Shown one piece after another: positions 5,830 to 45,622 of a stretch of DNA of 64,000 bases. The notes below the pieces were generated by a model, which was not told the DNA's origin, did no database searches, and saw only the letters and a list, made by a program, of their open reading frames with translations. The number at the start of each line of letters is the position of its first letter. Position 1 is the stretch's first letter. The position numbers and the translations under genes were made by a program. Origin of the DNA: Clostridiaceae bacterium (GTDB lineage: Bacteria > Bacillota > Clostridia > Peptostreptococcales > Natronincolaceae); assembly GCA_020832135.1 (NCBI GenBank), contig JAFIFG010000128.1:1-64000 (forward strand). Reading direction: 5' to 3'.

Positions 5830-5854
5830 ATAGTTAAATTAAATACAAGTTGTT

Positions 5855-5972
5855 ATTCTTCAGGGCAGGGTGAAATTCCCGACCGGCGGTTAGAGTCCGC
5901 GAGTCGATATGTTTATCGATTGATCTGGTGTAATTCCAGTACCGACAGTAAAGTCTGGATGGGAGAAGATAT
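5855..5972 (+). ncRNA. FMN riboswitch (RFN element)
   Basis: The conserved RFN blocks are all present in order: CAGGGCAGGGTGAAATTCCC at the 5' side, the CCGGCGGT block, CCGCGAG, the CTGGTG...CCAG arm, the ACCGACAGTAAAGTCTGGATG block and the closing GGGAGAAGA. FMN binding represses the downstream gene in known members. Here the aptamer is followed by a terminator (6007-6038) and then ribU, so high FMN should stop transcription before the riboflavin importer. Confidence 0.97.
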
Positions 5973-6006
5973 AAAGTTTACTATGTTTTTTTGCATAGTA
6001 CATACT

Positions 6007-37606: not shown

Positions 37607-39268
<1,662 letters not shown>

Positions 39269-39385: not shown

Positions 39386-39414
39386 TTGATAATTTTCAGA
39401 AGATTTGTTATACT
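39386..39414 (+). promoter_or_regulatory. SigA promoter of the candidate ncRNA
   Basis: TTGATA (39386-39391), 17 bases, TATACT (39409-39414). The expected transcript start near 39421 coincides with the first base of a stable hairpin. No start codon with a ribosome site follows before the terminator at 39735. Confidence 0.8.
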
Positions 39415-39420
39415 ATGTTT

Positions 39421-39783
39421 AAGGAAGTAGAAACTTCCTCAGAATCCTTTCTTAAGCTAGATCCTATAGAACATGATTACGAAGTGTCGTGAGAATTAAG
39501 TGTAAGTGTAAGTGTAGTGTTTAGTTGAAAGATTCTATTATGATAAGTAAAATGTAAGATGCAAAAAAGTAAAAAGCGTCTACCGTTGTTGAGTTAGTTA
39601 GTAGGAGATGACTTTAAAATTTTAAAGAAGTATAGAATGTAAATTTGTTTCATGAAAGTGTAGGGTAAAATGGAAGATGGTTAGTATAGAAGCAATGAAT
39701 TTAAAGGGTCTACTTAAGAGGGATTCTAATAATAAATAAATCAAGTATTCATTCAAACGAATACTTGATTTATTTGTTTTTTG
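39421..39783 (+). ncRNA. Candidate structured non-coding RNA, unrecognised family
   Basis: The transcript bounded by promoter and terminator is about 360 bases and has no ORF longer than a few codons. It opens with a hairpin (AGGAAGT-AGAA-ACTTCCT, 39422-39439). A long-range closing helix of about 22 bp follows: 39441-39447 with 39721-39727, two pairs at 39449-39450 with 39719-39720, 39451-39456 with 39713-39718, and 39458-39464 with 39706-39712, interrupted only by single-base bulges. Inside lie ATTCTAT/ATAGAAT (39532-39538 with 39632-39638), an AGATGC/GCGTCT hairpin (39557-39562 with 39576-39581) and three tandem TAAGTG hexamers (39497-39514). It lacks the hallmark sequences of tmRNA, RNase P RNA, SRP RNA and T-box leaders. 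Confidence 0.75.
39735..39783. terminator. Terminator of the candidate ncRNA and of the coat-protein genes
   Basis: ATAAATCAAGTATTC (39736-39750) pairs with GAATACTTGATTTAT (39759-39773) around an 8-base loop, then a T-rich run to 39782. The minus-strand coat gene ends five bases beyond it, so it can serve both directions. Confidence 0.88.
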
Positions 39784-39787
39784 TTAC

Positions 39788-40072
39788 TTACTGCAAGTCA
39801 TTTTTCATTTGATTAAACTTGGTTTGTGCACTTTGTACATCTTGAGCTTGAGCTTGTTTTGTTTGATACCAACCTCTTTGTTGCATTGCATTAAATATAT
39901 CATACTGAATTTGTTGACTATCATTTAAACAAGTGGTTAAATGTTGTCTTAAATTTTGGCAAGATGCCTCTGTAATCCCTACATTATAAGCTGAGGTCAC
40001 TTGTTTCTCAGAAGCTAATAAATCATTCATCAATTCCTTCTCTGTAAAACTAGCCTGATGATTTGTATTCAT
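39788..40072 (-). CDS. CotF-family spore coat protein
   Basis: A 94-residue, Gln/Asn-rich helical protein of the coat F family: the FTEKELMNDLLASEKQVTSAYNVGITEAS region (about 9-37) and RQHLTTCLNDSQQIQYDIFNAMQQRGWY are typical. It should form part of the spore coat. AGGAGG lies just before its ATG. It follows a second small coat-like gene by 26 bases in the same direction, a two-gene operon. Confidence 0.88.
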   Translation of the reverse strand: MNTNHQASFTEKELMNDLLASEKQVTSAYNVGITEASCQNLRQHLTTCLNDSQQIQYDIFNAMQQRGWYQTKQAQAQDVQSAQTKFNQMKNDLQ

Positions 40073-40587: not shown

Positions 40588-41679
40588 ATGATTTATAGGG
40601 ATTATGGCAAAACAGGAAAAAAAGTATCAACAATTGGTTTTGGTGGTATGAGATTTGGTAAAGATGAAGATTATGCAGCTGAGGTAGTTCGTAGAGCCAA
40701 TGAACTGGGAATCAATTATTTTGATACCGCTCCCTTTTATTGTAATGATCGTAGTGAGGAAATTTTTGGCAAAGCATTTAAGAATATGCCTGGAGAATTT
40801 TATGTATCAACAAAAAGTATGGTAAATAAAGAACCAGATGCTGATTCCGTAAGGAGAAGATTGGAAAAATCTTTAAAGAGAATAGGTGTAGATAAAATAA
40901 ATTTCTTTCATATGTGGTGTATTATGGATTTAGAACAGTATAAAAAAGTAATGGCTCCTGGAGGCCCTTATGAAGGTGCTTTGAAGGCAAAGCAAGAAGG
41001 ATTAATAGAACATCTTGTTTTCTCCACTCACTGTAAGGGAGAAGATATAAGAACTATTATTGAAGATGATGTTTTTGAGGGTGTATTATTGGGTTATAAT
41101 GTAATGAATCATCCCTATCGTCAAGAAGGGATAAAAGCGGCTATGGAGCACAATATAGGTGTTGTTACAATGAATCCCTTAGGTGGGGGGTTAATACCAC
41201 AGCATAAAGAATACTTTGAGTTCATCAAACAATGGGATGATGAAACAGTAAGCCAAGCAGCACTTAGATTTAATGCAGCTCAAGAAGGAATTACAGTATC
41301 CTTAGCTGGTATGGGATCTTTAGAGGAAGTGGAAGAAAATATAAACACATTGAAGCACCCTATTGCTTTCTCGGAGGAGAAGTTACAGGAAATAAAGAAA
41401 AAAATTATAAATGATATGGATTCTTTATGTACAACTTGTAGTTATTGTACAAAATGTCCTAAGAAAATACATATTCCTCATTATCTAGAGGCATATAATT
41501 TGATGATTTTGAAGGATGAAGCAACGATGAAAAAACATATAGATTGGTTAAAACAGGAAGGTAGAATAAAAGAAGAGAGTCCTTCACCAGATGAATGTAT
41601 TGCCTGTGGTGTCTGTGAAGAACTTTGCACACAAAAACTTCCTATTATACAGAGGTTAAAGGAAATAGCTGAAGCATAA
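40588..41679 (+). CDS. Aldo/keto reductase with C-terminal ferredoxin-like domain
   Basis: The 363-residue protein has an aldo/keto reductase barrel (1 to about 265), with the catalytic Asp-Tyr region NYFDTAPFY (about 48-56), the Lys in STKSM and the His in FFHMW. A C-terminal 4Fe-4S region follows: CTTCSYCTKCP (about 279-289) and CIACGVCEELC (about 334-344). This AKR-ferredoxin architecture is common in Clostridia; the substrate is unknown. Ribosome site GAGGAGGG. Monocistronic, perhaps with the zinc-ribbon gene that follows. Confidence 0.9.
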   Translation: MIYRDYGKTGKKVSTIGFGGMRFGKDEDYAAEVVRRANELGINYFDTAPFYCNDRSEEIFGKAFKNMPGEFYVSTKSMVNKEPDADSVRRRLEKSLKRIGVDKINFFHMWCIMDLEQYKKVMAPGGPYEGALKAKQEGLIEHLVFSTHCKGEDIRTIIEDDVFEGVLLGYNVMNHPYRQEGIKAAMEHNIGVVTMNPLGGGLIPQHKEYFEFIKQWDDETVSQAALRFNAAQEGITVSLAGMGSLEEVEENINTLKHPIAFSEEKLQEIKKKIINDMDSLCTTCSYCTKCPKKIHIPHYLEAYNLMILKDEATMKKHIDWLKQEGRIKEESPSPDECIACGVCEELCTQKLPIIQRLKEIAEA

Positions 41680-41964: not shown

Positions 41965-42028
41965 TTGACAACAGTCGACATATTTGATAACTTATATTTA
42001 ATCTTATTTTAACAAGTAAATAGACATA
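41965..42028 (+). promoter_or_regulatory. Promoter region of guaBA (only the -35 is clear)
   Basis: A perfect TTGACA lies at 41965-41970, but the sequence 17 bases on (TAACTT) is a poor -10. A second start such as TTGATA at 41984 is possible. Some promoter must lie here since the guanine aptamer begins near 42030. Confidence 0.4.
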
Positions 42029-42029
42029 T

Positions 42030-42108
42030 ACACACTCGTATAATATCGATAATATGGTTCGATAGTTTCTACCCCAAGGGAACCTCAAATTCCGGGACTA
42101 TGAGTGGA
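42030..42108 (+). ncRNA. Guanine riboswitch of guaBA
   Basis: P1 is CACTC/GAGTG (42033-42037 with 42102-42106). The core matches the purine class: TATAAT junction, P2 ATCGA/TCGAT with an L2 carrying ATATGG, the invariant TTTCTAC junction, and ACTAT with cytosine at the specificity position (42098). Cytosine there indicates guanine recognition. The P3 helix is unusual: CCC-AAG-GGAA pairs with TTCC-GGG and leaves a three-base AAG bulge. Ligand binding should favour the terminator at 42184. Confidence 0.92.
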
Positions 42109-42183
42109 GTTATTATATTTTAGCGGGGCTGTGTAGAAAAGAATCCTATGTAGTTTTGCTGAGGTTTTTATATATTTTACTTA

Positions 42184-45419: not shown

Positions 45420-45454
45420 AAAAGAGAAGTTAAGACACGGATATTTGACAACTT

Positions 45455-45526
45455 AAGACTCATATAATGTCGATAATAGGGTTCGACAGTTTCTAGAGGA
45501 TCACCAAGAATGATTCTACTATGAGT
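45455..45526 (+). ncRNA. Guanine riboswitch aptamer (first of tandem)
   Basis: P1 ACTCAT/ATGAGT (45458-45463 with 45521-45526), the TATAAT junction, P2 GTCGA/TCGAC, the TTTCTA junction and an ACTAT segment with cytosine at the specificity position (45519) identify the guanine class. L2 and L3 keep the GG and CC used in the loop-loop contact, though L3 (CCAAGAA) differs from the usual CCGTAAA. It abuts a second aptamer of a different class. Confidence 0.88.
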
Positions 45527-45622
45527 GAAAGTGTACCTAGGATTCCCTTCTGTAAAGAAGCAGGTCCAAGTGGTACAGGCATTGATTCAATGTCACACCG
45601 ATGGGATAAAAGTCCGGGCGTG
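45527..45622 (+). ncRNA. PRPP riboswitch aptamer (ykkC subtype 2b, second of tandem)
   Basis: Directly after the guanine aptamer come ykkC-class blocks in the right order: GAAAGTGTACCTAGGATTCC, a CTTCT/AGAAG hairpin, CAGGTCCAAGTGG, TACAGGC, a variable CATTG/CAATG hairpin, CACACCG and GGGATAAAAGTCCGGG. GTACC (45533-45537) pairs with GGTAC (45572-45576). This is the PRPP-type variant, known to occur in tandem with guanine aptamers before purine genes. Its 3' block overlaps the 5' arm of the terminator at 45609, so PRPP binding should block termination. Confidence 0.85.

Follow-up and report, generated by a model that had tools for sequence, protein, structure and literature searches.

OLE RNA (RF01071) is a large stand-alone RNA of anaerobic, often extremophilic Clostridia, and to our knowledge it has no habit of carrying tandem arrays. 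6S RNA (RF00013) ends in a long closing helix and is made as a single transcript with a terminator. Comparative surveys have provided motif sets of large, intergenic bacterial RNAs with conserved structure, most of them found through alignable sequence (e.g. PMC2864571, PMC6429828). Other RNAs are known for the words they display. CrcZ of Pseudomonas is a sponge RNA that titrates Hfq, and RNAs of this type carry multiple A-rich words per molecule (PMC4063720). Finally, genome-wide heptamer repeats of the TAACTGA type have short units, often of 7 nt, with stop codons in all frames, and are spread over numerous intergenic sites, most often immediately before a start codon (PMC4679880).

Here we describe an element that resembles each of these in part. 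It lies downstream of groEL in a stretch of 64,000 nt from a Clostridiaceae bacterium (GCA_020832135.1, contig JAFIFG010000128.1, positions 1 to 64,000; hereafter the window). An earlier note, made from the letters of the window, had proposed a candidate new structured RNA at this place, having seen in it no signature motifs of OLE or 6S RNA. Direct search located both of these elsewhere in the same genome. OLE RNA, which co-occurs with the new RNA in this genome and in most of its family, is encoded at G000:C4:135857-136458 (506 bits), and the locus itself has no match to RF01071 at gathering or relaxed thresholds. The 6S model finds two genes elsewhere and none at the locus. The interior of the new RNA (240-600 nt) also differs from that of 6S RNA in being C-poor and repeat-bearing, and we did not recognise in it a bubble resembling an open promoter. 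Rfam 15 assigns no family to the element at gathering score, in the window or at eight homologous loci, in line with the proposal of a new RNA; relaxed thresholds return only chance-level matches for the window element. Unlike the survey motifs, the new RNA keeps its ends, a core hairpin and its position rather than alignable sequence. It differs from CrcZ-type RNAs in showing, in most members, no enrichment of Hfq-type motifs and in a repeat word that is different in each genus, and from the heptamer repeats in that its arrays are part of a single structured RNA, with a unit that differs between genera. The open-access literature yielded no paper that deals with small RNAs in Alkaliphilus or Natronincola. 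The element represents a genuine family of stand-alone noncoding RNA genes, not catalogued before, which occurs in two families of Clostridia.

Architecture of the element in the window

The features of the locus are collected in table 1. The hairpin P0 sits at the expected transcription start, at about 39421, and is followed by the first arm of a helix, P1, whose roughly 23 pairs are interrupted on the 5' side by two bulges of one base each. The terminator comprises 20 pairs and a T-run, and probably also serves the cotF operon, which converges on it. The predicted fold of the element has a z-score of -5.1 with the terminator, beating all 100 dinucleotide shuffles, and of -3.9 without it. The ORF list holds no reading frame of at least 60 aa inside the element.

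Table 1. Features of the locus, with positions in the window.
Feature	Position	Strand	Basis
groEL, upstream neighbour	37634-39268	+	ORF list; homologues 82-92% identical within the family
Promoter TTGATA-N17-TATACT, extended -10 (TG)	39386-39414	+	consensus scan, consensus match alone
Noncoding RNA, start to terminator	39421-39780	+	distance from -10 box and position of terminator; both ends inferred
P0, 5' hairpin AGGAAGU-AGAA-ACUUCCU	39422-39439	+	fold; different sequences in most relatives
P1 closing helix, 5' arm	39441-39464	+	fold; co-evolution with 3' arm
Tandem array, unit TAAGTG, about four copies	39497-39520	+	TRF
Core hairpin AAG-CGUCU-A-CC...GG-AGAUG-A-CUU, bulged adenines	39574-39614	+	pattern common to two bacterial families; fold
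P1 closing helix, 3' arm	39706-39727	+	fold; co-evolution with 5' arm
Intrinsic terminator	39731-39778	+	consensus scan; precedes cotF in relatives too
Coat F domain protein (cotF), convergent neighbour	39788-40072	-	Pfam Coat_F, E 5e-25
Aldo/keto reductase, conserved downstream neighbour	40588-41679	+	Pfam; synteny

The structural statements of the earlier note all hold. It had described an ORF-free stretch bracketed by a strong promoter and a terminator, a hairpin opened by the predicted start base, and a long-range helix, whose arms the fold places at exactly the same positions. The promoter has, in addition, a TG before its -10 box. The spore-coat gene that it named as neighbour indeed encodes a Coat F domain protein. 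Its three tandem TAAGTG hexamers are counted by TRF as 4.2 copies, i.e. three exact and one degenerate. The note had missed the core hairpin with bulged adenines, and also that the TAAGTG repeats belong to a habit of acquiring tandem arrays lineage by lineage.

The window holds further RNA elements, all on the + strand: an FMN riboswitch (5852-5974), two purine riboswitches before guaB-like and permease-like genes (42016-42120 and 45440-45541), and a Clostridiales-2 RNA (RF02937; 47156-47238; 59.5 bits for a gathering score of 58.6), which is a small RNA downstream of a purine permease-like gene.

Distribution and neighbourhood

Eleven genera were found to carry the element, ten of them in Natronincolaceae and the eleventh in a second family of the order; it adjoins groEL and/or the aldo/keto reductase gene. 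Relatives within Natronincolaceae were located by synteny (groEL, cotF and the reductase gene). Besides the window genome (G000), the carriers are G001 (Anaerovirgula multivorans), G003, G005, G007, G008, G009, G010, G012 (Natronincola peptidivorans), G014, G015 and G017, with G005 and G015 counted as one genus and G008 and G017 as another. The named members belong to Natronincolaceae, order Peptostreptococcales, in the NCBI taxonomy. The second family was retrieved with a sequence model of the promoter, P0 and the 5' arm of P1, run over 297 genomes of the order; its five carriers (G024, G035, G046, G063 and G071) are of one genus and have groEL or the reductase gene next to the RNA. The interior is so variable that BLAST is nearly useless: the window element retrieved only the 3' end of one relative, which has the same neighbours. 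A similar model searched against 391 genomes of the class, a sample with the window genome as its sole known member, gave at most 26 bits outside the window genome, mostly from the promoter part. The exact core motif was absent from the viral contigs searched, and a search of plasmids gave no match. Because the models are specific to the promoter-P0-P1 region, distant relatives may be missed.

The same promoter arrangement could be aligned in 14 relatives. All full-length members have consensus elements of a promoter and a terminator of their own, and no ORF, even a short one, is conserved among them. Insertions separate the RNA from groEL in G001 and G017, and from both neighbours in G003, where groEL and the reductase gene are about 70 kb apart and the RNA stands beside another gene. 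The RNA is present without an adjacent cotF in G007 and in the entire second family; these loci show that the link to the spore-coat gene is not essential. The RNA is missing at the locus in G002, G004, G006, G019 and other Natronincolaceae genomes, and is thus dispensable.

In several relatives, mobile elements appear to have integrated at the 3' end of groEL. Sequence of an integrase-like mobile element comes directly after the groEL stop codon at five loci (L041, L045, L047, L049 and L054), and in Anaerovirgula multivorans (L062) the groEL end (TGCCAATGATGTAA) is repeated ahead of the RNA. The groEL-cotF gap of Alkaliphilus transvaalensis (L058) contains a repeat-like, C-poor stretch whose promoter side has apparently been replaced, possibly a decayed remnant of the RNA.

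Co-evolution of the closing helix

The earlier note had taken the long closing helix as a mark of a large functional RNA. We analysed one sequence for each of the 11 genera and paired all combinations of arms, taking the first 75 nt of the transcript and the 45 nt before the terminator, i.e. segments fixed by the promoter and terminator and not by the choice of arms. The sum over own arms was -321.6 kcal/mol vs -219.7 (s.d. 14.6) for permuted arms, and the own-arm sum was reached by none of 100,000 permutations. The own arm ranked first in 10 of the 11 rows and in all 11 columns. Arms chosen by eye gave a result in agreement (0/20,000 permutations). For example, the pairing is AGAAUCC/GGAUUCU in several members, AGUAUCC/GGAUACA in G003, and UGAAUUUUUCAUAU/AUAUGAAAAAUUCA in the outer part of P1 in G014; the inner part is less certain than the outer one. 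The arms do not change independently but co-evolve across the genera, which is the covarying secondary structure expected of a stand-alone structured noncoding RNA. This comparison of sequences shows that P1 is maintained by selection although its sequence changes.

In most relatives the hairpin P0 keeps its pairing with a different sequence; it is absent in G005, G015 and G010, where P1 starts near the transcript start. Some members have fold energies close to those of shuffled sequences (z = -1.2 in G005, -1.5 in G009). When the 5' region is given alone, RNAalifold prefers to pair the 5' strand of P0 with the 5' arm of P1. We set this alternative aside since P0 and P1 are each better supported; the RNA may switch between the two conformations.

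Core hairpin and interior

Inside P1, a hairpin of the pattern C[AG]U[CU]U-A-CC...GG[AG]GAUGA (39577-39611 in the window) is present in five Natronincolaceae members (the window, G001, G005, G012 and G015). The second family has it in all four of its full-length members. It folds in every member that has the pattern. Its upper stem varies with pairing kept (CCAC/GUGG, CCCAA/UUGGG), and the adenine between U and CC is retained. Of the ten Natronincolaceae genera that carry the RNA, six yielded no such hairpin, which thus cannot be the sole functional part. The rest of the interior, which in Natronincolaceae is C-poor, varies freely and can hardly be aligned from one genus to another. The second family has a more ordered interior: three members were tested and gave z-scores between -6.4 and -10.2, and the consensus fold has a further helix inside P1.

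Tandem arrays

Most genera carry different arrays, mostly of 6-9-nt units in up to about 44 copies (TRF), of which the TAAGTG array of the window is the smallest case. The units are AAAGCAAGT and AGAAGTT in G012, AAGAATT and AGTAAGTAA in G010, AAAGAAGT (17 copies) in G015, GTAAGAA in G007, TTTAAGA (44 imperfect copies) in G017, AGTTAAG (27 and 31 copies on two contigs) in G008, TAGGATT, AAGATTT and ATAAGAA in G014, AAGTGT and ATTTAGAT in G003, and, in the second family, AAGTAGTAC (12 copies) in G024. TRF reports little or no array in G005, G001 and G009, the last of which has no real array. In G008, G014 and G012 true lengths exceed these counts, because contigs of the first two end inside the array and the assembly of G012 has a gap. 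G outnumbers C in the RNA strand of all 15 main array units, and 13 have no C at all. All 15 also contain UAA or UAG, a modest, post hoc result (P about 0.004) from units that are not all independent.

The word AAGANTT is found throughout the genomes of G008 and G017. In G014 every match falls in the RNA, in G010 their number fits the array alone, and the octamer of G015, a genome of two contigs, is exclusive to the RNA. The array word appears, from these counts, to be confined to the RNA in the three genomes checked (G015, G014 and G010); arrays therefore often arise in place and not by the spread of a repeat over the genome. Two genomes of another family of the order (G026 and G037) have many scattered hexamer arrays of the GTAAGTGTAAGT type, whose word is that of the window RNA. 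In G024 (L104), a separate array with a unit like AAGACCGCAAAAG precedes the reductase gene, outside the RNA.

Discussion

We give a probability of about 0.95 to the element being a real functional RNA family. The mechanism that we propose for it is as follows. A sigma-A-type promoter and a terminator of its own would produce a stand-alone RNA. P0 and P1 would hide both ends from exonucleases, so that the RNA would be long-lived; structures of both kinds are known to shield transcripts against these enzymes. Specificity would lie in the core hairpin of those members that have it and in the strand close to the 3' arm, probably as a site where a protein binds. The arrays would serve as an elastic, unpaired spacer rather than as a coded signal, which fits the C-poor strand being in the RNA for all 15 units. 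The RNA would act in trans, as an RNA-protein particle, and not on its neighbour genes, since members share no ORFs, end in their own terminator and persist without cotF or where insertions part them from their neighbours. The absence of the RNA from the locus in several genomes of the family, the core hairpin that six genera lack and the near-shuffled fold energies of G005 and G009 speak against this account. As stated, i.e. an end-protected, trans-acting RNA with an elastic spacer, this mechanism is the most likely of the readings considered and has, in our estimate, even odds or slightly less.

The arrays may matter in another way. The RNA could combine conserved ends and a small core with a functional middle made of arrays, the repeat word of which would change with each genus, perhaps to track a fast-evolving partner protein or target RNA. 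We regard this as unlikely. If true, it would mean that the specificity of an RNA is rewritten by repeat expansion.

It is quite unlikely that the array is the business end of a sponge that displays a short purine-rich word many times over to titrate Hfq or another RNA-binding protein. The arrays of most genera are purine-rich and C-poor, closed and stable ends would suit a sponge, and Hfq was detected in 19 of the family's 20 genomes. The exception (G004) also lacks the RNA, but this joint absence is a single coincidence, and most genomes without the RNA retain Hfq. Moreover, Hfq-type (ARN)n and (RL)n motifs are in most members no more frequent than in dinucleotide shuffles, with depletion in the largest arrays, those of G008 and G017, the word changes between genera while Hfq is conserved, and G009 has the RNA with no array to display. 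The content of distal-face motifs thus does not support an Hfq sponge of the CrcZ type.

A role in cis, with the RNA controlling cotF by read-through, transcription interference or as an antisense, is improbable too. Synteny is widely kept in Natronincolaceae, and the terminator hairpin abuts the stop codon of cotF and can serve both strands. Yet this terminator is strong and stands ahead of cotF, the RNA persists where cotF is not adjacent (G007, the second family) or where its neighbour is another gene (G003), and selection acts on pairing within the RNA, in P1, for which antisense action has no need.

Pairing between the two ends is also known in type I toxin mRNAs, such as hok and aapA1, where it keeps the message untranslated. 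That the element is a small-peptide mRNA of this kind is very improbable: short ORFs exist in single members, but none is common across genera, frames are broken between members of the same genus in the second family, many arrays have stop codons in all frames, and no candidate hydrophobic peptide recurs. The conserved short ORF of a type I toxin mRNA is thus lacking among the members. Scarcely credible is a feature of the DNA alone, i.e. a repeat-prone intergenic site or the scar of a mobile element that resembles an RNA gene, which could account for the apparent integration at the groEL 3' end and for the genome-wide heptamers of G008 and G017, but not for a promoter, P0, P1 and terminator in the same order and orientation over 11 genera, for P1 arms that co-evolve, or for array words apparently confined to the RNA in G015, G014 and G010.

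These results add an uncatalogued RNA family, supported by covariation, to bacteria that also carry OLE RNA. They provide a natural case of short arrays that arise repeatedly within a single RNA gene, with one strand consistently preferred. The role of an array inside an RNA becomes testable at a defined locus, and the family has cultured members, Natronincola peptidivorans and Anaerovirgula multivorans.
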